DNA of 64,000 bases from Dysidea avara. Taxonomy: Eukaryota; Porifera; Demospongiae; Dictyoceratida; Dysideidae. Numbering within the stretch: position 1 is the stretch's first letter; each line of letters begins with the position of its first letter. Location: positions 13,795,682 to 13,859,681 of the forward strand of contig NC_089275.1 in assembly GCF_963678975.1 (NCBI RefSeq), read 5' to 3'. This document shows positions 5,241 to 63,090 of this stretch, piece by piece. The notes under the pieces are model-generated. The model saw nothing but the letters and a program-made list of their open reading frames with translations. It ran no database searches and was not told where the DNA came from. A program made the position numbers and the translations under genes.

Positions 5241-5371
5241 GTATGGAAATCCACTAGAACTGATACCAACAAAAACCAATTATAGCTGCTAGTGTAAGGA
5301 TGATATTGAATTTTATAGCCTAGTAGGAGACATACAACAAAGATTACTGAAGCAAGGGAGATCATCACCTG

Positions 5372-5400
5372 CACTGAAAAAACAAATAGGTAGAATTGAC
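5372..5400 (+). repeat. Left terminal inverted repeat of the CACTG transposon
   Basis: CACTGAAAAAACAAATAGGT followed by a GAATTGACC word. The first 15 bases are identical to the complement of the right end; beyond that the similarity continues with mismatches. Confidence 0.8.
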
Positions 5401-5700
5401 CTCACTGGGTCACTTTACCCAGGCACAATAGAGGTTAAAAAGACCGTAAAGTGGTTAATATAACTAACAGGGGTAGAAATAACTAGTTTAGTTAAATCAA
5501 CCTTAGATGGTTGAATATACCAACAGCATCACCTGTTGAATCAACTCAGAGTGGTTAGTTTGACTATTAAAGGTCATATTATACTACTGCAAAGTTAAAG
5601 TGACATAACAAAAGTCATTTTGACAATTGTGTAGCTGCTAAATCAACCACTGTATGGTAATTTTGTCTCAGCATATAATTTTCAATCAAATTTGCACAAA
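5401..5700. repeat. Left subterminal repeat region
   Basis: Dense in short related words such as GGTTAATATAAC, AAATCAACC, GGTTGAATATACC and AGTTTGACTATT in both orientations. Such arrays near CACTA ends are known transposase-binding regions in plant elements; that role here is inferred. Confidence 0.55.
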
Positions 5701-5948
5701 GTTTAAAGCTGTGCAAGCATATAATACAAGTGAAGGGTTAATTAATAGGTGCAAAGTAATGATTAATATAATAACACAGTCCATCCATACATGTGTGTGC
5801 ATGGTTTACATCATAACACAATAATTCAATCAACGATAGTTGTTCACAAGTAATTTGGTCTGCAAATAATGTTCAGAAAAGCACAAAAGTCCAGTACTTT
5901 AATATCTGAACAGCAACAAAGTAATTGCAGGAACTAAAATGTCTATTA

Positions 5949-6542
5949 TTAATTTGTCCAAACTCTGGATGCAGTCCTATCTGTCTCTAAAACCAAATAA
6001 GTGTAATTGGTTGACAGATACCCTGGCTTCAGAATTAATTTTGGAAATAACAAGCTGCAATATTTCCCACTTTCATCTTGAACTAGTCTAGTGCTGCCAT
6101 GTCTGCTAAATGGGCCACACTCAAGCTGGTCAGAAATCAGAGCAATATCATCTTTACACATTCATTATTGGTGCCTATTAGCCATTCTAAGTGTGCAGCA
6201 CTTAGAATGCACAAGTGAATTCAACAGTTTAAATACTTAATTGCTTAGTTTCTAAAGAAACTTCATGTCTTATTGCACATGCATGTATACATGCATGTGC
6301 AATAAGACATGAAGTTGTATATTTAGCGTTGAACCAAGACTTGAAACATGTTCAGGATAATGTACATTTGGGGACATAATATGATGATGCACCATACATG
6401 TTATGAATTTCAAATGGTGATCTTTGATTAAAACCATTGTGAATGGGTAAAATAAACTGCAACTGTTATTTGCTTGAATCTTGCATAGGTTAAAATGCAG
6501 AAAGGCAGTCATTAAACTTTTACAGTTAAAACTACCTTGCAT
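5949..6542 (-). pseudogene. Decayed second copy of the transposase 3' end
   Basis: Minus-strand frames here repeat pieces of the transposase at 6817-8700. The stretch DQLECGPFSRHGS..LVQDE parallels NQLECGPLESNGLVQDE, and HYPEHVSSLGSTLNI parallels HYPEQMLSLGPMLNT. The order of the pieces is the same, but frames are broken and a 58 bp palindrome lies inside. This is a partial internal duplication of the transposase, not an independent gene. Confidence 0.75.
6259..6316. repeat. Perfect 58 bp palindrome
   Basis: Arms of 29 bases with no loop, centred between 6287 and 6288 (CATGTA|TACATG) and containing CTTATTGCACATGCATG. It lies within the decayed transposase copy and could extrude as a cruciform. 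Confidence 0.95.
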
Positions 6543-6816
6543 GTGTGGCGGAATTTGCCATTATGTAAAAAAGTTGAATAATAAGTTGATGTGGTCAGTT
6601 TTACTACCATCATGCTGTAAATGCCAATAAAGGGTTAAAGTGAAAGACACCAGCTAAATGCTTTTTACCCAATTGTATAACCAATTACATATTTATAATT
6701 ATAAAGTGGCAAATAGTAAATACCACTAAAGAGTTGGAGTTACAAGATGTCAGCTAAATCAACCCTGTTTTAACTAATAGTTAATGGTGTAAACAAATTC
6801 AATTATTAATGTGATT

Positions 6817-8700
6817 TCACAATGCATACTTCAAAGATATGTAACTCACTCCATCACTAAGTGTGTGTGCATGGTAAACATTACAGCATAATAAATTACA
6901 ATACAAAAGTTGCTCAAATGTTGCTTTCACTGCATATGCATGATGATGAGTGCAGAAGTACAATGTCTGGCACTTATTAACCTGAAAGATAACAATGTTG
7001 TTGCTGACCACCAAAATGTCCATTATTTCTCCAAATACTGGATCTAGTCCATCTGTGTCAATTATCAAATAGGCATTGTTTGGTTTATAAAGAATACCTT
7101 CCATTTTAATCCACTTTGGTCGACAAATTGTTACTTCTGGTTTAATTTGAGGAATTATATGTTGTAACTGTTCCTTTAAATTCTCATTTTCATCTTGAAC
7201 AAGCCCGTTGCTCTCAAGTGGACCACACTCTAACTGGTTCACAATCAAATTCCCTGAAGCCATTTCATAGCACATCCAATTTTGGTGTCGATTAGCCAAG
7301 CTGAGGGCTATGTTTTTAAAATTTGAAAGTTGAGAAGCTTGTTTGTAAAAACGAAGTTTTGCTTCATATCGCATAGTCCATGTATTTAGCATTGGACCAA
7401 GACTTAACATTTGCTCTGGATAATGAATTAAAAAGTGCATCTTGGGAATGTAAGATGATGCACTGTACAACTGCACAAATTTTAAGTGGTGATCTCTGAT
7501 CAATAATTTCAATGACGAACAAAAATTTTCAGTGATAACAGGGGATAGAACAATGTCAAAAATTTTTCTCAAAAGCCTGAAGCAATTCCAGTGCTCCTCA
7601 TCTTCTGGTGTTTTATCAGCAACTAGAAATGGCATTATCCGTACAAGTAGTAACATTTGTGATGCAGATGCACGGATTTTTTTCTCAGTCTTAAGCGTAG
7701 TACTAAGGATAGGAAGTGGCTTGTCCTTTTCTGAGTATCCAAAATTAAAGTTGATTAATCTTTCATTGAACTTTTGCAGTGTAAACATATGATTAGATGT
7801 GTAATACAATAGCATGAGCTTAATCTCATGTGGTGCCAATCCCTCCAATAATTAAATCATGCATTAAGTCATGAGGCAGTCCATATCCAAACATGGAATA
7901 TTGCTTCACATCCATTAAAGAAGATCTTTTATTGACTCCATAAGTTTTAGAAAAATGGCCACCGATATCATTTTGTAGACGTTTTAACTGTCTCTTATGG
8001 ATTAATTCATCTCTTTTTTATATGCTTCAGAATAGAAATTGAAAGATAAAGATGTTTGTGTTACTAAGCAAGTATGACAACAGCGATATGAAAATGAAAA
8101 TGACTTTTTAAACCCACCAAGATCATTACTCGCTAAATTGTCTGCTAAAAAAACCAACAGAGCTCCTTTAAAGACTTGATTCACTCCATCAATGGGCATC
8201 ACAATTCCTTCTGTTGCTAGAATATTAAGATCATGTATAAAAGGCTTCATTATAGTATGAATCCCATGTGCCTCAATAACAGGAATAGTAGCAACAATTG
8301 CTAGTTGTGTTAGCTTCAATTTTGACCGATATTTTGGATGTATATTGCCAAGTGTATATGACACTACACCCACTTTGTTTGATTTAACATGTGACCCCAG
8401 TGGGTTGCACACTTCTAGCTCATCAAAGTGTGCAACTATCTGTAGAGCACAAGGATCTTGAGAAAACAATGGGTGGGTTTTAAATCTAGTACCATCACAA
8501 AAATCTTTAATTTTGTCACCATTAAGCCGTTCAGGCAATTGCTGTACTTGTTCTCGAACTGATAAATCATGTAGCATAGCTTTAAGTGATGCTAACAATG
8601 GAACATATTGATAGGAGTCTTGCTTTTCAACCAGCCGTCTCTTAGATCCAGAAAATTGGGGAACATAATGTGGATCACCAACTAAAATCTCTTCTGGTTT
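6817..8700 (-). pseudogene. Transposase catalytic exon (exon 3), broken by two frameshifts
   Basis: The large 3' exon of the transposase. The acceptor TATATTGTAG precedes 8700 and the frame opens KPEEILVGDPHY. Family landmarks, in order, are: YVPLLASLKAML; ELEVCNPLGSHVKSNKVG with YTLGNIHPKYRS; LADNLASNDLGGF; a C-x-x-C-type RCCHTC; LPHDLMHD; and, after a break, EGLAPHEIKLMLLYY, SASQMLLLVRIMPF, IHYPEQMLSLGP, WTMRYEAKL and SLANRHQNWMCYE. These match by memory the animal EnSpm/CACTA transposases. Frame 1 ends at a stop at 8002 in an A-rich run; a middle frame carries on to about 7850, where a second shift falls inside the MHD..LEG motif. The last frame ends at 6817. The catalytic aspartates and glutamate cannot be assigned surely. 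Confidence 0.8.
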
Positions 8701-9308
8701 CTACAATATAATCATATGAAATTATAATGGCAGCTCTTATGAATATCATACATGCAGTGGAGCCCATTAATGCGTACACTGGAAAATGAAGAACTTAATC
8801 TTACATCAAATCCAGATACTTAGGCAACAGAGCTCAACATTCCAACCATAATTTGTTAGTAATTTCAGAGACCTTGCACTTCTAGTCATGAGTTGATAAT
8901 GTTTACATACAAGGATGACAACTGCCAGGATATAGTGTGTATAAACAGGCTATGCTGGGTTCATCTTTGATCAAATTAATACCTTTGTGGTGATAAAGAC
9001 AGAACAGTTGATCATGAAAGCTTTGATATTTGTGGGTAAAGGTCAAGCTTTAATGTTTAAGGCAGTAGCCACAATGCTTTCCCTGGATGCATTTTACTTA
9101 AACTCTGTAAAAATTAGGAACTCTTGGGGTACACCATGTTATAGGAGCAGTTTGCATATACTAACTGTATTGACTTCATAACATTTTATTATTGAAATTT
9201 TAACAGCACTATATCGATGCTACACATTAGTTACATGCCATCTGGCATGTGGAAACAAGGGGATTTATTTATTAACATCTATATAAGCATGCATGTTGTC
9301 AAACATAC
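8701..9308 (-). other. Transposase intron 2
   Basis: 608 bp between donor GTG|GTATGTTT at 9309/9308 and acceptor TTGTAG at 8702-8701. Both borders are phase 0. The open frame on the opposite strand at 8987-9181 has no recognisable content. Confidence 0.7.
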
Positions 9309-9640
9309 CACTAAATGAAACTGATTCAAATAATATGCATTTTGCTGGTACTCAGTTGCTAAACCACTGAATGGCTCCTCAATATCATTGAAAACCTCAT
9401 CCATAGCATTAATATCACATGGGTTAAATCCTATATCAGCAAGTTTACTCCTTAGGGCAGCCTTTACATATTCCATTGTGGAGGTAAATAGCCCTCTAAA
9501 TCCCTCTACTACATCGTCAATTGCAGCTTGTGATAGTCGGTGATGTTCTTTTAACTTTAACAGCAGAAGTGCACTTGAACGTTTGATAGCTTCTCGGTCA
9601 TGTCCCGTTAAAAACTCTATGTCAGCTGTCAGTTCCACTC
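9309..9640 (-). CDS. Transposase exon 2
   Basis: A 332 bp exon between acceptor TTGCAATTAG (before 9640) and donor GTATGT. It joins the phase-1 end of exon 1 to give GVELTADIEFLTGHDREAI, a helical segment rich in leucine and lysine (SSALLLLKLKEHHRLSQAAID) without a known catalytic motif. It ends phase 0 at HLV. In related transposases this region links the zinc fingers to the catalytic core; its precise role is not known to me. Confidence 0.75.
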
Positions 9641-9697
9641 CTAATTGCAATGGAAAATTTAAAATGGTGTAGTTATCAAATTAATTGTTATACATAC

Positions 9698-10049
9698 CTT
9701 GGTCATTAATGTTAGTGAGAGGTTCATCAAAAGATCTTGAAGTGGAATCTGCCGCAACATCTTGTGCTTGTGTCTTTCCTTGATTTGAAGTCGATTCCAC
9801 GATGTCATCATTATCAGCGTTACAGCTTCCTCGTTTATCAATATATTCACGGTGATGGCGATAAATATGGGAATATAATCCAGAAAATGTTCTCGAGGTA
9901 GTTGAACAGCCATCCAATCCGCACGTCACACAGAAGTTTGGCTCATTAGAATGATATGCACGGATATGTGAAAGGATATCTTTCACTGTAAAATGATTAA
10001 ATGAGCACAATGGACATTTGAAATTGGTGCCGTTTCTGCATAGCGCCAT
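9698..10049 (-). CDS. Transposase exon 1: zinc-finger N-terminus
   Basis: Starts at ATG 10049 and reads MALCRNGTNFKCPLCSFNHF. Two C2H2-like fingers are visible: C12-x2-C15-x12-H28-x4-H33 and C43-x4-C48-x12-H61-x3-H65. A polar, serine-rich tail follows (ADSTSRSFDEPL). The donor AAG|GTATGT lies at 9698/9697 and leaves phase 1. The fingers probably bind the transposon ends. The start lies 306 bp from the divergent SAM-gene start, so the two genes likely share a promoter region. Confidence 0.8.
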
Positions 10050-10355
10050 CGTTCTGAGTAGCTAGCTATCGATTTAACTTGGTTTGCACAGTCCAATATT
10101 GCATGCATACAGTATTCTACAACTTGCTTCAAATTGGGTGAAGATAAACTTCGAAACCAACGTATGTCTCTGGAGACGAGTGGATTTCACGAATAGCTAC
10201 TATATACAGTCGTCTTTGCTCATCTTCAGACCACATTTGCGCATGCGCGACGTATGACACTTAATTTTTGTGCGATGCACGGTGTAGAAAGTGTTATTTC
10301 ACTCTTAGTCAGCAGAAGTTTTCGATTGCTTCTTTCCGCTCAGTTCTTTGTCGAT
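10050..10355. promoter_or_regulatory. Divergent promoter region of the two transposon genes
   Basis: The only space between the transposase ATG (10049, minus) and the SAM-gene ATG (10356, plus). It is richer in CpG than its surroundings (GCGCATGCGCGACG near 10240), as expected for a shared 5' region. No certain TATA box was identified. An upstream in-frame extension of the SAM reading frame to 10254 exists but starts within this region. Confidence 0.5.
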
Positions 10356-12675
10356 ATGGCTGGTCAAGAGCTACTTCCAAGCCAAGAGTTAGATTACCGT
10401 GACTACCATGGACCATTGGAATACAGTGCGGATGAAGATGATGATGAAACTCAGGTGAGCTAGCTAGGCTGAAGCCTCGTCTTAGCGGCCGCACGTGGCG
10501 ATAGTTCGAACATTCAGTGGTGGCATAGATACATATATATATATATATATATATATAGTTTGTGATATGCATGTGTTTGATTTTGATTCTGTCTAGGTTG
10601 AAGAAGTTACTGAGGTGATGACAAAAGAGGATGTTGCGATTTTCTTACGAGATAAACTGAGGATTCCTCAAAACTACTGCAACATCTTTAAAGATGGATA
10701 AGCTTTGCTGATAACTAGATCGTTTAATTACAGAATGGTTTAATAGATAACTACATAGATGGAAGGGAATTTCTTTCCTTAACTGAAGAAGAGGTGAAAG
10801 TGATGATACCACCAATTGGCCTTGCTAAAAGGATTGTTCGGTACTTACCATCATCGAAGGTATGCTTATATCCTACAGATTTAGCATATACGTATTATTT
10901 AATGCATTGCAGTTATCAACGCCTATATTGGAAGCTGCAACTACCTCTGGTGGAAGTGATCACAGCGGTCACACTGATGTGCAAGTTGGGACCAATGTGT
11001 CAAGGAGCACCTCTTCTTCTTCTACACGCACTGGGGGGTCCAGTAACTGCTACTGTTGTATCTTTAGTGATTCCAGATAATTGGAGGCCTGAAGTAATGA
11101 AGTCCATCAAAAACAAGTGCATTACAGATAGCACTAGGAATGAAATTGTACGAGTTTTGGCAAATTCATTGTTTTCTGTGTCACAAAAACCAAGTAGACA
11201 ACAATGTGATGAGGTTGCAAAAAAACTCATTTTGAAGTTCCCATCAACGAAAGATGAATTAGGAAATGGATATGTAAGTTTTATTGCTGTAATGTGATTT
11301 TGATTTAATTTGATACTTTCAGCAATCTTGGAGTGACAGGCTTGTTGAGAGAATAAGAAATGTGATCAAACGCGATCGTAGAAAGGGAGTGGAAGTAGAA
11401 GAATCCCCAGTTGCAAAAAGGCCAAAAAAACAAGTAGTATTATTAAGCCGCTACCCAGTAACTACAACAGCAACTACCATGCTGTGCAGTGCTGATCACC
11501 ACAATGATGGCAGCATCGATGACCATGTACAGAGTATGAAAACCGAAATGGAAAAGGAAAGGCCGCGGGATACCTTGCTCAGTGAACTGATGAAGCTGAC
11601 CTATCCAACTCGCAGAGATTTTATTCTCAATGATATCACCTGTGTTTCTGAGATATATGAGAAGTACCCAGCTTTGAAACGACCATCCATGGTTAGTAAA
11701 ATGTTTTACTCTAGCTTGCTCATTGAAATATTTCCCTAGGTGGTACAAGAAATGGGGCTTATTATGAATATTGCAGACATTAAATCATCTTTTATTTCCA
11801 CATGGACAGAATATGTTCCAGCTATTTTACAATATGCGAAGAATAGCAGGAAAAAGGTTCTTTCTACTTTAATGAAAAACATGGTTTATGATGATGAAGG
11901 TTAGTTAACTGGTTCATGACAATAGGGTTAATTCATATCTTTTTGAACTATAGATGATGTATCAATACAAGTGGCAGCATTGAATGTACTAGCTGCTGTG
12001 CTGGGAAAAGGAGATGACCCTTTGTGTTACTTGTATGAGGAGCATAGTGTAAGTCAATAACTTAAGTGAATATGTTGCATGAGCAATCAGCCAATCGACA
12101 CCTCAGTCAACTCTTAGGATAAAACACCCAATTTATCTTTTCATTGCCTATCAACAAATCTCTTACCAGTGGAAGTGTGAAGTGTTTGAACAAGATATAC
12201 TCACATTTGCATTTTTTTGTCACACGTTATAACTAAGTCATTTAGTGTGCAAGCCCACACACTAGGTTACAGCTACTATAGTCTCTTAGTTCAAATAATA
12301 TTACTGTTTGTTGCATGTTTAAATTCTCTGTTCTCTTTTAATATATAGGCAACACAGAGTTCTACAAGTATATGCAGAAAAGCTCCACCACGAAGTCAGC
12401 CTTGGTTTGCTGCTGTAATAAGCGACTCTTCAACCAAGTATTCAATAGTATGTGAACAGAAGGAGGTTTCTAAAATCACTACAATTGAAACTGCTTTATT
12501 TGTGTTTTCATTATACTACTGCCTTCATCTAAAATACCCTGATGGAGCAAAGTGGATATATTTCTTTTTTCAATATTTCATATTGCAACAGCCAGATCGT
12601 GCGGCGAAATCTGCAACATATTTGAGTGTCACTTCAGACATAAAACGTACGCTGCTGTTGAGTAAGACAAATTAA
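10356..12675 (+). CDS. SAM-domain protein carried by the transposon (eight exons)
   Basis: Exons by splice sites and phase: 10356-10454, 10597-10692, 10734-10859, 10913-11273, 11323-11691, 11740-11899, 11954-12048 and 12349-12675 (TAA), about 543 residues. Exon 1 is acidic (SADEDDDETQ). Exons 2-3 (residues 34-107) form a SAM domain: VAIFLRDKLRIPQNYCNIF, NYIDGREFLSLTEEEVKVMI, IGLAKRIVRYL. A serine-rich linker and a region resembling SAMD3-like proteins follow (IPDNWRPEV, ILKFPSTKDELGNGY then QSWSDRL; ELMKLTYPTRRDFI; YCLHLKYPDG). SAM domains mediate protein or RNA contacts. Defects: a G6 run at 11033-11038 shifts the frame by one base, and intron 2 begins GA instead of GT. All other junctions stay in phase, so decay is recent or the breaks are sequencing errors. 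Confidence 0.8.
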
Positions 12676-12889
12676 CTGACAATCTTTTCTTTACAATGTA
12701 ATAATGATAATGTAATTATTTTGGTTTAATGTATATAGTAACAGCTTGTGATCGTTTACATGTAAAGTTACACAATATTATTATTAAGTGATTGATTGTA
12801 ATCTCTGGTTGAAGCAGCTGTTGAACCTGTAAAATCAATACAATGTAGTGCATGTAAAATTAAACATGTAAGTAAAAATAACTTTTGAC
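12676..12889. other. 3' flank of the SAM gene
   Basis: AT-rich sequence after the TAA with no clear AATAAA; AATAATGATAATG near 12700 is the nearest candidate. No other gene is seen. Confidence 0.4.
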
Positions 12890-13483
12890 AGTAATTCAAA
12901 CTGGTTGTCAACTGTTCATAATTACCTGATAGCGGGTAAAATGACCTGCAGTTATTCAGGTTATTATTCCATATAATGACCCAAGTCAGTTTGGTCAAAT
13001 CACTCCTTTGAAGGAAAACTGACCAATGTGTAGTACTTCTGACCACTGTCATTAATAGGTCAAGTTGACCATTCGATTAAAGTTAAAACAACTGGTTCCA
13101 TAAAAGGCAAAATGACCAAACTTTTTCAATGGTTGTTGCTACCCAAAAAATGGTAGTTTGAATTGTAGGTAAAATTACCCAGGGTTAGTGGGTAATTTCC
13201 ACTATAGTCTGGTCTATTCAACCTAGATGTTACAGTGAATTTAATCCATAAAGAACCAATCAAAGTGACCTTTCCCAAGTTGAATTGACCAGTATGAAGT
13301 CGTAGTTTCAACTGTGTTTAATTCAGGTTATTTTGATATGATTTATAATGGGTTGATCTGACCACTTCATTAAAGTTAAAACAACTGATATGATCAATGT
13401 GAAATTGACTGTATGTATCAATGGTTATTACAACCAAAAACTTGGGTTGTTTGAATTGCAGCAAAACAACCCATCACTGGTGG
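12890..13483. repeat. Right subterminal repeat region
   Basis: Many short related words in both orientations: GGTCAAGTTGACCATTC, TTGAATTGACCAG, AAAGTTAAAACAACTG (twice, near 13080 and 13370) and AATTACCCAGGGTTAGTGGG. It mirrors the smaller array at 5401-5700. Confidence 0.65.
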
Positions 13484-13512
13484 GTCATTTTTACCCTTTT
13501 GTTTTTTCAGTG
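13484..13512 (-). repeat. Right terminal inverted repeat of the CACTG transposon
   Basis: Reading inward on the minus strand it starts CACTGAAAAAACAAA and continues AGGGTAAAAATGACC, the partner of 5372-5400. Confidence 0.8.
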
Positions 13513-13727
13513 TGATGTGTAATTTTAATCCTGATTTTAGTCTCTATATACACTAGCAATGTCTAATATAGGGATTAAGTTTACATATCCCCTTGTTTCA
13601 GCACTTTGTAATGATACCTGCTAGCTTGTAAAATTTTCATACATGTCAGTTAACTTTTGTAACTTATTATTAATCACTACTGAACTGTGCCATCAAAGAT
13701 AAGTAGGGCATAATTATGATTTATTAC

Positions 13728-14003
13728 AAGTACAGAAAAAATTGGAATTTTCAACTAAAGTAGGGACCATAGCACATCGATAAATAGTACTGAAATAAGC
13801 TGGAGTAGTCCACGATATTAAATTACAGTAAAACAATAAAAAGTGTTATATCCCTACTGTGCATTTCCATTATGGTATCTTGAGCACAGTAGGAATATAA
13901 CACTTCTTACTGTGATTTAATATCATGCACTACTCCAACTTGTTTCTGTGCTTTTTATCTATGTACCATGGTCCCTACTCTAGTTGAGAATTTCTAGTTT
14001 TTG
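13728..14003. repeat. Foldback hairpin MITE (type A), second copy
   Basis: Same hairpin as 3989-4275: TTGGAATTTTCAACTAAAG, then TAGGGACCATAGCACATCG, with the arms returning through CATGGTCCCTACTCTAGTTG. Again it is followed immediately by the composite-repeat body (GACTGATGAATCCATGCA). Confidence 0.9.
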
Positions 14004-19146: not shown

Positions 19147-19407
19147 TTAGCTATACATGTTCCTTCCACACATTATCCCACAAAGGCTTCCCCTATTGTC
19201 TGGCTTTGTTTGATCATGGAAGTATTTAGAAACAGTATCCTTCATGCAGACTGCAAAATCATCACAGTCAAACTTGTGTAGTTTATAGTCATAGTCACCC
19301 AATGTTGATGAATCCCAGATGGTATTTAGAAGATGATAGTCTAGTTTTACATAAAGAGAGTCTTCCTTGAATCTGTTGATGTTGAGGCTGGGGTAAGCAT
19401 TTTCCAC
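19147..19407 (-). pseudogene. Fragment with a DCDDFA motif (lectin-associated protease-like C-terminal domain?)
   Basis: An 86-codon minus frame holding NINRFKEDSLYVKLDYHLL, HKFDCDDFAVCMKDTVSKYF and GSLCGIMCGRN. From memory, the F-D-C-D-D-F-A motif followed by a GI.WG-like strand is the signature of the cysteine-protease-like C-terminal domain of Marasmius-type agglutinins and related proteins. If so, C and D of the motif would be active-site or metal residues, and the later histidine strand is missing here. Upstream of 19407 a related-looking frame is shifted. It lies inside a transposable element, so it may be captured and decayed. No introns could be assigned. Confidence 0.4.
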
Positions 19408-19836
19408 AATCTTTCAGCTTCATTATGTGTGAAATAATCTATACTCCAACCTTCCAGTGGGATCCAACAACATCATTTTTCTCAGTAAAATAGACAATTG
19501 AGGCTGTTGAAGAGAAGCTGATGCATTTTGGTATATAGCTAGCTATATCTAAATGCTTGGTAGCTACAAATGAAAAGATTATCATGCATGCATGATAGCT
19601 ACTCAATGCATATTGCAATTAGTCTTGATTTAATGGAAAAGTGTTTCGATTAAACTGAAATTCCATTATTTTCCACTGAAAAGCTGCTAAAAACACTCTC
19701 AGATTCACCTTTAGAAGGCCTAATTTTCAAAATTTCATGGGTGGCATGCCCTCAGACCCCAGCACACTTTGCATGCTAGTGTGCTTTTCCCACTAATGTA
19801 GTCATTGTTCTAAATAGCTAATTTGACCATGGATAC

Positions 19837-24939: not shown

Positions 24940-27195
24940 CATTTCTTCTTTTCTATACAGACACATGATGGTTATTGAAGACAGACTTATCAAATGTCTT
25001 CTGTCCATACCCTGGACCTGGCTGAAGCAGATGATATTGATGTATTGTGGAAACATGTTTTCTTTGCTGTTGTGCAAGATTCTGTAACTCAAGTTTGCTG
25101 GTGGCGTAAAAAAAACGAAAAATTGGTTGTCTGAATCCACAATACAGTTAATAAGACTGAAGAGATTATGCTACAAGAAACTTAAGAAATTTTTCTCATC
25201 TTACCGCCAACACCAGTACAATCTGTTGCAAAATAAGGTGCGTGCTGCCACAAGATTTGACTTCAAAGCATTTGTTGATTTGATCACTGATTGTCTTCAT
25301 CAAAGAACTAATAAGCTCTTCTGGAACTGGATCAACAAGATTAGAGCATGTCGTAATCCCATACTTGCTATCAATTATAAAGATCAGGTGGTAACCTCAG
25401 ATTCTGCAAAGGCTAACTTATTTAATCAATACTTTGTGTCTGTTTTCACTAAGGAAGATGTTTCTAATGTACCAAAACTGCACCTTCCTACGGTTGCTGG
25501 GTTTACTTTGATCATTTATCAGTGTCTCTTTCTGATGTATGTGCTGAATTGTCTGCATTGGATACTAGCAAAGATTGTGGGCCTGATGGCATTTGTCCTC
25601 ATCTGCTGAAGGATGGTGTTGCAGAATTTGCTATCCCTCTTGTTGCTTTATTTAACAAATCATTAGCCGATGGTATCCTTCCTCTTGATTGGGTCTGTGC
25701 AAACATCACCCCTGTTTTTAAAAAAGGTACTAAACATCTTGTTAGCAATTATCGACCAATCAGTTTAACTTGTGTTATCATGAAAGTGCTGGAGAGGATT
25801 ATTTTCAACAAATTTTATGAGTTGTTGGAATCTCATCAAGTTCTTTGTGATGCTCAGTTTGAGTTTCTTAAAAAGTGCTCCACTACCTCATTGCTGCTGT
25901 TTGCTGTTAATGATTGGGCATCCAACCTAAATAATCGTCTTTGTACCTACTGTATTTCCATTGATTTTGCTAAGGTTTTGACTCTGTGCCTCATCAACGC
26001 CTTTTACTGAAGCTTACGGTGTTGGCAAATCTATGCTAAAGTGGTTCTCATCATTTCTTACTACTAGGCAGCAATGTGTAGTGATCAATGGTTGTGCTTC
26101 GGATTGGTCCAATGTCCTATCTGCAGTTCCGCAAGGCTCTATCCTAGGCCCTTTGCTCTTTATCTTATATATCAATGATCTCCCATCAGTTGTCTCATCT
26201 TCTACGAAGATTTTTGCAGACAACGTTGCAATTTACTGCCCAGTGGGTTCCACAGCTGACTGTAAAAATTTACAAAAAGATCTGGATTTAATGTCATCTT
26301 GGTGTTCCACATGGCAAATGAGGCTGAATCCTTCGAAATGTGTATTTCTAATAAACGTTCTCCTATCCATCATTCCTACTACCTGAAAAACCATCTTCTT
26401 CAGTGTTCGTCATCTGTCAAGTATCTAGGAGTTATTGTAGACTCTAAACTATCTTGGAATAAACATGTCTCGCATGTTTCATTGAAAGCTTCTTGAACTT
26501 TAAATTTGTTGGGTCGTAACATGTACACATGTAATTCTTCTGCCAAGAGGAAGGCATTCAGAGCACTTGTCCCACCAGTTTTAAATTATGCAAGTACCAT
26601 TTGGAATCCTCACACTCAGAAAAACATTTCTGCTCTGGAGAAAATCCAAAATCGTGGGGCTCGTTGGGTGTGTGGCAGCAGGTACAACTGTCATAGTCTC
26701 ACATGGTCAAAGTCATCTAGTGAATGTTGTCACAAGCTTCACTGGCCATTTCTTTCTACTCATCGGAAGTATCTTACCATATTACCATTTATGATATTTA
26801 TCACTGCCACATTTCCTTACCTTCTTCAAGCTCCTTTTCATTTACCAATTCTTGTACAAGATCTCACTCCCTTTCGTTTCAGCGTAAGCGGTCATCAATA
26901 AACTCTTATAGGTTTTCATTTTTGTTAATGGTATATTTTTATGGAATTCTGTCCCGCATGATATTCTCTCTCTTCCTCATCAGTCTCACTTTAGACGAGA
27001 GTTGCATAAATTTTTTATAACACTTTTTTTCTACAGTATTTAGTTATTTGTTCTGTATTGTATTAATGTCCTTGTAATGTTTGTTGTTCTCTGTTTTTGT
27101 ATCTTGTGTTTTGTAGGTGTTATATACTCCTATAGGCATTTGCCTTTTGTAATTACCTTACCCTTATGGTTAAACAAATTTTTTTTTTAAAATGT
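24940..27195 (+). pseudogene. Decayed LINE (Jockey/CR1-like reverse transcriptase)
   Basis: Plus-strand fragments in the order of a LINE ORF2: a lysine-rich segment (25127-25500), then from 25522 SKDCGPDGICPHLLKDGVA and FKKGTKHLVSNYRPISLTC, then AVPQGSILGPLLFILYINDL at 26126, then KIFADNVAIY, RLNPSKC and SVKYLGVIVDSKLSWNKHV. These are the thumb and palm blocks of non-LTR reverse transcriptases. The catalytic FADD reads FADN, and frames break near 25510, 26000, 26370 and 26495. The 3' part ends ACCCTTATGG, T-rich sequence and TGTATTG repeats near 27195, as in LINE tails. The first part (about 25000-25110) contains DDIDVLWKHVF in another frame. Non-functional. Confidence 0.85.
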
Positions 27196-60176: not shown

Positions 60177-62295
60177 ACACCGGTATGTGCAGTTTGCTTA
60201 CAGGTCACATCATGTGCTTTATAATCCCAACTGCTATGTGCAGGTAATCTACATAGGTTTTTTTTTGATTCACCAGCCTTTTTGGGCACTTTTTTTTCAT
60301 TTTTCAAATCTTTTTGTGATACATTTTCCCTCTATTATGAGTTATCCTATTGCAAAGCTTGCACTCATCTCTCATTGGGTATTATATTGCGAACCTTTTT
60401 AAACACATTTATCTGTCATTGTGCACCTTCTTTTTTGAATGCTTTACTGTGTCACCAAGAGTTAGTAATACCTCTCTGATGTTGTTAACTGTTGGTTTTA
60501 CTGTGCAGCTCCTTACTGTGGTACAGGTAGGATATAGAGCAGGAGAATGCAGGTATCACTTATTTGAGTAGGCTATAAGCTCACTTGAAATACATGTGAT
60601 GTAAGGAATGTCACTATCACTAGCTGTACCCATATTCCAATAACTGCTTTATATATGCTTACTAAACATCTCAGCATGTAGTTTAATGCTTAACTTTGTG
60701 TCTCTGAAGTTAAGTTGTTATACTGATAAAGGGCAAAAAGTTCCGCATGCATAGGCAGGTACTATATGACTTACTTTTCCATTGTGTATGACTTTTTATA
60801 CTATCTTTCTCTTTGTGCACATATACATTTTCACAAACACTATTATACTATCACATTTTAGCGTTACTTTTGTACTTTCAATAAATGTCATTGAGTATTA
60901 GCAAGAGTTCATACTATTTGTATGGAGGAAATTATGAACTCTTGGTATTAGCTTTTAAGCAAGTTGATTTTAATATAGACACGATAAAGTGGGTGAGCAG
61001 GCTATACAGGCAATAATGTGACGTAGTATATGTACCTGTAGTGTGCCCAAAGCCATTTTGAATAAGTGTAGGATCCTTACCATCTCATTGCAAAGTTTAG
61101 TGCTTAGTGAGTTTGTCAAGAAGTTATTGACAGGACAGGTGTACTACGTACATAGCTTGTGTGTATTAAACACATTGTGTTACTTGCACACTCACATCGT
61201 ATCATTTCAACACTCATGTACAGTTAAAGTGACATCACTGTGCATGCTGCATACATGAATCGTACTGATTTGCAAGTTAATAGTTTTAATTTATTGCAAA
61301 AATGTGATGATGGTCCTGCATGTAGGGCAGGTACCAATGCTAGTCAGGTTATAAATACATTTTACCACTGCAGTATACAGGTGACTGAGACAAGTAGGCT
61401 GGCACAGCATAGTAAACTGCTAACCTCAGATTTCATCTTGGGCATACCTTTGTAGTCACCACAAACCAAAACACATAATTTATTACACGTCAATGCAGTC
61501 ATTTCTGGCCTCCCTCCTAATCCAATATAAACTCTGCTATACTTTGAAAGGACACTATTTCCAGACAAATTCAATTAAGGCCTGATACCTGGTGTATGTA
61601 ATTGACCAGAAACTGTCCAGTGTGCGGACATTATTTTGCACAGTGTCTTATCCCATTCAATAGTTTAAAGCAAGAAAACATTTACAGGTAGCTGGATACA
61701 GATGTTTTTATAACAAATTTCCGAAGCTCAAATTTTCATGCGCCATTATGCTTGCTTCGCTGGTCACAGTCACAAGGCTAGAGGCCAAACAAAGTAGCAC
61801 ATGGCCATTATTTAATTGCAAAATATCAAACTCACTGGTGGGATTGTGCTGTTTGTCAAACTAACAAATGCTTGCTTTCTTCTAACACCAGGAAACCATA
61901 CCAAGGTGTTAATTTTTTGTATCAACACTATCCTTTAAAGAGAATAGTTAGATACTACAAACTATATTGAGGCACTTAACAGACTATTACTTACCACCCA
62001 TCAAGTATGATCAGAAGAATATAGGGAGCATTTATACTCTGATGGTGAGTAAAACAATAGCAGTGGATACTGTTTGGCTTAATTAAGCTCACTTAAGATG
62101 CATATATAAAGTGTTAATGAAATAGGATTGATGTTCTGTACTTTCATGGCAGTTTGATTCACCACCGTGTAGAGGGGAATAGCTCATAATTTACATGTAA
62201 ATGGTATGTACATAATCCACACAACTGAAGTCTGGACAACTAAAGTTCTATTATAAGAAGCAGATCACAACTCCCTAGTCATGACATACACTAAC
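60177..62295. other. No recognisable gene (intron-like)
   Basis: AT-rich sequence with short frames only; includes the short foldback at 60894-60951. Confidence 0.4.
60894..60951. repeat. Short foldback, second copy
   Basis: AGTATTAGCAAGAGTTCATA and TTATGAACTCTTGGTATTAG pair around a CTATTTGTATGGAGGAAA loop. Confidence 0.8.
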
Positions 62296-62580
62296 CTTCC
62301 TTAGATATTTTGCTATGATGAACATTATCTGCTGCAGCATTCAATCCAATATTTTTTAATGCTGTAACTAGTTGATCCCAATTAGCATCAGTTTTCATCT
62401 CAAGCCACTTCTTGAACATTCTACTACACCGATCATCATCGCTTTGATGGTTGGTCTCTATCACATCCAGTACAGCAGTGTCACCATCCAGTAACTCCAC
62501 TCCAAGAGTATACCATCTGGTAGCTATTCCTCTGGCCTCTTGTCTCATTACATTGTTTAAATCTTTTAAATTTAGTTGAT
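62296..62580 (-). CDS. Death-domain exon
   Basis: A 285 bp exon between acceptor AATTTTACAG (before 62580) and donor GAAG|GTTAGT (62296/62295), phase 2 at both ends. The frame reads QLNLKDLNNVMRQEARGIAT, RWYTLGVELLDGDTAVLDVI, RCSRMFKKWLEMKTDANWDQ and LVTALKNIGLNAAADNV. The W-x-x-LG-x-x-L, C-x-x-M(F)-xx-WL and W-x-x-L-x-x-AL-xx-IG pattern is that of a six-helix Death domain of usual length. Death domains assemble signalling complexes in apoptosis and innate immunity. The outgoing phase fits the exons at 53.2 and 47.55 kb, so a Death domain followed by the helical domain is possible. The partner proteins are unknown. Confidence 0.8.
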
Positions 62581-63090
62581 CTGTAAAATTAACAGCACAG
62601 ATAAGGTTTATAGCAGTACAACATATATTCTGTGTTACACTGGTGGAATTTATCTTTTACTACCATTAGTACTTGCCCTACATGCAGGACCATCTCTGCA
62701 TTAAACATTTGAATGCCGGGAACAGAGACCAAGCATTAAACTCATGTAGCTATGTAGTATGTATGGTGATGTTAGGAACATGAGGTTCTTCATGACATCC
62801 TGCAGGTATACTGAATTAATGATGCAAAACACCAAAGTTGTTTGTCTGTGCATGGTTTTGACAGGAATGTAGCTCAATTATTCAGTGAGTCTTCCCTACT
62901 AGTGCCTTCAAGGTGCTATATTAAACAAAGCATCTGTACCTGCTTTACACGCAGGACAACTAATGTGACATTATAATACATTGGGAACCAAGCAGAAATA
63001 TTAGTGTGCTACATTGCTGTGTATAGTGTGCATGTTGATAGTGCTTTACAATGCATGTTCCTTATACCACCTTTTAAGTACATACATGTA
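62581..63090. other. No recognisable gene
   Basis: AT-rich, upstream of the Death-domain exon on the minus strand; no further exon could be assigned. Confidence 0.4.

Follow-up and report, generated by a model that had tools for sequence, protein, structure and literature searches.

The En/Spm transposon of maize has a subterminal binding motif. It is of the CACTA type and needs two proteins for transposition, one of them DNA-binding: TNPA and TNPD are both essential, TNPD interacts with TNPA, stabilising DNA binding, and the proteins come from one alternatively spliced unit (PMC1636069, available part). The same part of that paper describes SmTRC1 and the animal TRC elements, which belong to the CACTA superfamily, include a Transposase_21 region and make more than one protein; the variants of SmTRC1 arise by splicing, and a SAM domain is not mentioned there. 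Target-site duplications of 2 bp are made by Spongebob of Hydra, which has CCC tips (PMC4298943, available part), and tips of the form CAC..GTG are combined with an accessory gene in the fungal EnSpm elements that carry TET/JBP dioxygenase genes, whose Puccinia families make 3-bp duplications (PMC12730594, available part). Here we describe a CACTG-ended element in a 64-kb stretch of the genome of the sponge Dysidea avara (C4:13795682-13859681, referred to as the window), which is very probably a two-gene DNA transposon of the CACTA/EnSpm type with a SAM-domain protein as partner of its transposase, and for which a possible mechanism is set out below.

The element differs from Spm in having two divergent genes round a CpG island, a 13-bp dyad and a second protein with a SAM domain, from Spongebob in its tips though not in the length of its duplications, and from the fungal elements in the nature of its accessory gene. 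ProtoRAG, the RAG1-RAG2 transposon, belongs to the same wider transposase clade and likewise has a dedicated partner protein, but differs in its 5-bp duplications, its RAG2-like partner and its convergent genes. No SAM-gene-bearing CACTA element was found among the titles and opening lines of abstracts searched, though one may be described in subscription papers or in Repbase, and the available part of PMC2884549 has nothing on a second gene. On present evidence the element is a form of EnSpm whose accessory gene encodes a SAM protein.

Boundaries, copies and pairing of the two genes

The complete element occupies positions 5372-13512 of the window (8141 nt), with both genes between matched tips. 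An earlier note on this stretch had pointed to inverted CACTG ends, and perfect 15-bp tips are indeed found at 5372 and 13512. The inverted ends (5372-5401 and 13483-13512) are 87 % identical over 30 nt and resolve into this tip and a dyad site, at equal distance on both sides; the 15-mer has no further exact match inside the window. A second copy on C3 (8214 nt, 64 substitutions) is about 99 % identical from tip to tip and has unrelated flanks. Together with the divergent pair seen in other families, this copy, with both genes at an unrelated site, upholds the proposal that the two genes are mobilised together: the element is real and both genes move with it.

These two copies make up family 1. 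Family 2 includes eleven copies, on C1, C4 (three), C5, C7, C8, C11 (two), C12 and C13, which align to the copy L041 at 97-99 %. All eleven start with a CACTG tip, their flanks differ, and each has a divergent SAM gene, which is more distant (6.9 kb) at C4:42.9M and is run through by an internal deletion in the C12 copy. Family 3 consists of L049 and of L047 and L048 (C6:37.07 Mb and 36.90 Mb). The last two have an identical left flank and therefore represent one insertion copied by segmental duplication, counted once. A further tip (L056, L057 and L059), which is that of a fourth family, occurs at two SAM loci, C5:18571301 and C15:12627811, and also at a short end on C10.

Both tips were read at 7 of the 13 insertions in families 1 and 2, leaving out those on C1 and C13, the three family-2 copies on C4, and L041, which has lost its right tip. 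All seven are flanked by 2-bp duplications (TG in the window, AG in C3, TT in C12, TG in each of C5, C8 and C7, and CA at C11:11.89M), within the 2-3 bp of CACTA/EnSpm elements. A doubtful right tip in family 3, with 3 mismatches, no adjoining dyad and unmatched flanks, was excluded from this tally. The tips of families 1 and 2, CACTG..CAGTG, have the CAC..GTG form of CACTA/EnSpm, and the left end of family 3 starts CACAG. Chapaev elements make a 4-bp duplication and Transib/ProtoRAG elements one of 5 bp. Compared by eye, the insertions fit neither length: none of the seven matches at 4 bp, and only one at 5 bp (C3, inside an AGG repeat).

The genome searched comprised 550.8 Mb in 108 contigs, and the searches score the best candidates only, such that all counts of matches and loci are lower bounds. 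The SAM gene of the window has at least 69 matches in 30 loci, and exon 3 of the transposase has at least 103 matches in at least 64 loci. Within 15 kb, the limit set for pairing, 21 of the 30 SAM loci have a transposase match, divergent in 20 cases, against 0.32 pairings expected and a maximum of 3 for random positions on the same contigs (2000 trials). When queries for the transposase C-terminal part (at least 119 matches) and for the family-2 SAM gene (at least 78 matches) were added, 24 of 33 SAM loci were paired, 23 of them divergently. Transposon sequence adjoins three of the nine unpaired loci: C5:18571301 and C15:12627811 run into a dyad array and their common new tip, and C9:3566726 into a right end. 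Another, C15:14032658, is a fragment of the window's family with 93-96 % identity, and C6:29021101 has a related transposase 51 kb away; no array was found in the 1.2 kb downstream of C15:12580844. A SAM gene fixed in a host position without the ends, which the earlier note had also named as a refuting case, was shown at none of the 33 loci, a check that leaves aside C6:29021101, C14:1717751, C14:3124788, C15:2316976 and C15:12580844. At L003/L004 (C15:14032569-14038131), some 5 kb of other sequence separates the two pieces of a SAM fragment of the window's family; the pieces overlap by 5 nt, resembling the target duplication of another mobile element.

Structure and constraint of the genes and the subterminal dyads

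The transposase includes the motifs HFDE, ADNL, CHTC, HDLMH and RYEAK, which supply D, D, C(2)C, H(3)H and E, the catalytic residues having been picked by eye without a profile. The order D, D, C(2)C, H(3-4)H, E is that of the EnSpm-Mirage-Chapaev-Transib clade (PMC12730594, available part), and in the DDE transposases of CACTA/EnSpm the motifs C(2)C and H(3-4)H lie between the second D and the E. The motif order fits the EnSpm type given in the earlier note. The profile matches stay below their cut-offs: exon 1, the N-terminus, gives C2H2-finger-like matches (best E 1.7e-6) under the Pfam cut-offs, and Transposase_21 (PF02992) matches exon 3 with E 0.0034 and 17.1 bits against a cut-off of 28.6. 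In the analysis as a whole, NCBIfam matches were far under the cut-offs, searches of PDB gave no credible match and those of Rfam none. The frameshifts near 7849 and 8013 in the window copy are absent from the C3 copy, which has an open frame of 626 residues in their place. No relatives of the transposase were found among bacterial and archaeal contigs or phage records, and none of its exon 3 in viral contigs.

The SAM-domain gene of eight exons that had been predicted on the opposite strand was confirmed, with a SAM_1 (PF00536) score of 30.8 bits against a cut-off of 23 when the exon 2-3 junction inferred from other copies is used; the family-2 protein scores 24.1 bits. The first gene model, with a GG donor after exon 2, reached only 19.6 bits, and that donor gave way to the present junction once C3 and family 2 were compared. 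After this correction, five of the seven introns are about 50 nt long, and the positions of the two introns compared (exons 2-3 and 4-5) are common to families 1 and 2. Beyond the SAM domain, a basic region and the C-terminus of the protein are conserved, and KPSR and DR are among the motifs kept in an alignment of the three families. The window copy has a 2-nt gap near 11046 and has lost the splice donor at 10694; C3 has neither defect and has its own damage, a 5-nt insertion near 11782. Relatives of the SAM protein were not found in viral, bacterial or archaeal contigs.

Between families 2 and 3, nonsynonymous (Ka) and synonymous (Ks) divergence of the SAM gene are 0.091 and 0.87, a ratio of 0.104 (225 codons in four blocks, omitting the first and last exons, which were not found in family 3), and those of the transposase gene are 0.097 and 0.68, a ratio of 0.144 (411 codons). 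For L047 the 411-aa frame was used in place of the longest frame (488 aa), which proved not to be homologous (25 %). Between families 1 and 2, the transposases are 50 % identical over 625 codons with Ks 2.7, and the SAM proteins 43 % over 266 codons with synonymous sites saturated. To judge by the agreement of these distances, the two genes are alike in divergence and in constraint. Where families 2 and 3 are compared, the SAM gene is thus under purifying selection. This speaks against a mere passenger, and we have little doubt that the gene is a selected, integral part of the transposon. In the earlier note it had been called cargo; it does travel with the transposon, but the selection on it exceeds what mere cargo would call for.

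The words repeated near both ends are instances of one 13-bp palindromic dyad, RGTYAAWTTRACY, which is present in three families. An untrained count of half-site pairs (relaxed, with gaps of 0 to 15) gives 19 pairs at a gap of 5 and no more than 3 at every other gap, in agreement with the subterminal word arrays of the earlier note and with the repeat arrays of CACTA/EnSpm elements. Counts at gap 5 are 7 and 8 in the two ends of family 2 (shuffle maxima 3 and 4), 5 in the family-3 left end (shuffle maximum 4) and 0 in three control stretches. A trained matrix finds 22 sites in the outer 500 and 700 nt, against a mean of 0.62 and a maximum of 3 in 200 dinucleotide shuffles, a count that is circular because the matrix was trained on those very sites. 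A further 4 sites score in the interior of the element and 15 in the remaining window, making 41. Each of the five ends examined, from three families, has its outermost dyad starting at nt 18 from the tip. Sites of the left array mostly recur every 18-25 bp (six of seven spacings), about two helical turns, and the right array is less regular. Three dyad sites lie at 6444-6607, following the decayed duplicate of the transposase 3' end (together 5772-6607), perhaps the trace of a second left end acquired long ago. A perfect 58-bp palindrome is also found here (6259-6316), and the C3 copy is about 60 nt longer at this place.

The start codons lie at 10049 on the minus strand and 10356 on the plus strand, divergent and with 306 bp between them as had been stated. 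The observed/expected CpG ratio is 1.23 in this gap, a value reached by 1.3 % of 1249 sliding windows, and 0.38 in the window. The CpG island spans the 5' ends of both genes, and the ratio is 0.91-1.1 at the corresponding place in family 2 (L041). We infer a shared promoter of the two genes, an idea that the island in families 1 and 2 favours. The palindrome at 10238-10249, which we take to be an NRF1-like motif, has its sole exact match in the window here and is missing from the three joined family-2/3 loci checked; among the loci checked it is thus confined to family 1 and not a general feature. Feature coordinates are collected in Table 1.

Table 1. Features of the element and its target site, by position in the window
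Feature	Position	Strand	Remarks
Target-site duplication TG, left	5370..5371	.	TG repeated at 13513-13514
Left tip	5372..5386	+	perfect 15-bp terminal inverted repeat CACTGAAAAAACAAA
Left subterminal array	5387..5567	.	8 dyad sites; six of seven spacings 18-25 bp
Decayed duplicate of transposase 3' end	5772..6456	-	two stretches 67-68 % identical to parts of 6842-7525
Transposase gene	6817..10049	-	exons 10049-9698, 9640-9309, 8700 to ~6817
306-bp gap between starts	10050..10355	.	CpG island; palindrome 10238-10249, presumably NRF1-like
SAM-domain gene, eight exons	10356..12675	+	exon 2-3 junction inferred from other copies
SAM gene exons 1-4	10356-10454, 10597-10693, 10747-10859, 10913-11273	+	
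SAM domain (PF00536), exons 2-3	10597..10859	+	splice donor at 10694 differs from C3 copy
SAM gene exons 5-8	11323-11691, 11740-11899, 11954-12048, 12349-12675	+	
Right subterminal array	12869..13497	.	14 dyad sites; matrix
Right tip	13498..13512	-	perfect 15-bp terminal inverted repeat
Target-site duplication TG, right	13513..13514	.	

Elsewhere in the window, a separate inverted-repeat element with 96-nt arms that are 83 % complementary lies just beyond the right tip (13736-14002). A reverse-transcriptase fragment is found at 25468-26010 (PF00078, below cut-off), exons with an agglutinin/lectin C-terminal domain and a Death domain lie at 19147-19413 and 62291-62656, and ankyrin-type exons are also present.

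Proposed mechanism and alternative explanations

In the mechanism that we propose, transcription would proceed both ways from the central CpG island, and the transposase, with its DDE residues and finger-like N-terminus, would cut at the CACTG tips. The SAM protein would assemble on the dyad arrays via its basic conserved region and SAM-mediated self-association and would pair the two ends for the transposase; it may additionally protect or regulate the element. The form of the dyad suggests binding by a dimer. SAM domains can form larger assemblies, which would suit an array of dyads. The division of labour would be like that of TnpA and TnpD in maize Spm, via a protein not known to be related. 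That the SAM protein itself binds and pairs the ends is the part of this scheme that we put forward tentatively.

Several observations weigh against this interpretation. One SAM-transposase pair, C1:54240031, is not divergent. Among the 64 transposase loci, 43 have no SAM match within 15 kb (the family-2 SAM query pairs two of these), many of the unpaired loci being short or distant, and no SAM gene was detected at L049 (C9:5990121), a family-3 relative with an intact left tip. The SAM gene is damaged in both family-1 copies, and the window copy is broken in transposase and SAM gene alike. With respect to DNA binding by the SAM protein, no credible Pfam or PDB match was found outside the SAM domain, the one fold attempted, of 80 residues, was unusably poor (mean predicted local distance difference test score 46), and the dyads could be bound by the fingers of the transposase instead. 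Lastly, ends without the SAM gene, the case that the earlier note had named as refuting its proposal, do occur: a right-end query gave at least 42 matches, of which 31 cover no more than roughly the final 90 nt, and 39 of the 42 have no SAM match within 15 kb, though these same ends are also without a transposase match. A SAM match lies within 15 kb of the right end in the window, C3 and C9 only, and a transposase match in the window and C3 only. Because a transposase match is missing as well and 31 match in the terminal stretch only, the gene-less right ends are presumably internally deleted copies. One of the 31 short right ends (L057, on C10) was partly read, and it has the new tip of the C5 and C15 SAM loci and a dyad array.

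The alternative that survives best assigns the dyads to the transposase, which would bind them as a dimer via two finger-like motifs, leaving the SAM protein only to oligomerise the transposase, without DNA binding of its own. The half-site, about 6 bp long, would be of a fitting length for two fingers, the C2H2-like N-terminal region of the transposase is 48-56 % identical in families 2 and 3, and the dyad is conserved together with that region. However, the constrained basic region of the SAM protein outside its SAM domain would then need another role. We regard this explanation as doubtful taken as a whole, though finger binding with the SAM protein as a bridge is nearly as possible as binding by the SAM protein itself.

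Less probable, and in our view unlikely, is a role of the SAM protein in anti-silencing or regulation, exerted at the central promoter or on host chromatin, without any pairing of the ends. The centre of the element is CpG-rich and most of the remainder CpG-poor, and other DNA transposons carry genes of this kind, such as those for TET/JBP in fungal EnSpm and other lineages, and those for the Vandal proteins (PMC12730594, available part). However, no dyad site scores in the 306-bp gap, and 22 of the 26 sites in the element are at its ends.

A host SAM gene captured once and useless to the transposon would be a simple passenger. SAM domains are common in host proteins and plant CACTA elements capture pieces of host genes, which speaks for the idea. 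It is nonetheless highly improbable here, as the pairing spans families with 50 % identical transposases, Ka/Ks of the SAM gene is 0.10, and two compared intron positions are common to families 1 and 2. Chance neighbours or nested elements, for which the decayed transposase duplicate in the left end and hence a rearranged end could be cited, can be dismissed in view of the tip-to-tip copy on C3 and the 2-bp duplications at seven of seven insertions.

Relation to SAMD3-like genes of animals

The SAMD3-like proteins of animals have an N-terminal SAM domain, apparently followed by a similar conserved region. It is conceivable, if rather speculative, that SAMD3-like genes present in multiple copies in animals belong as second genes to live or dead CACTA transposons and that vertebrate SAMD3 is a domesticated accessory protein. 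If this were true, the single-copy SAMD3 of vertebrates would once have assembled on transposon ends, in parallel to RAG. The families described here offer a direct test of the origin of SAMD3-like genes, and annotations in which such genes are entered as SAM-domain genes of the host would need to be re-examined. For the CACTA elements themselves, a dedicated and in all likelihood selected second gene stands beside the transposase in families whose transposases are about half identical, and the element offers a defined candidate binding site, and a protein that can be tested, for studying how the ends of such transposons are paired.

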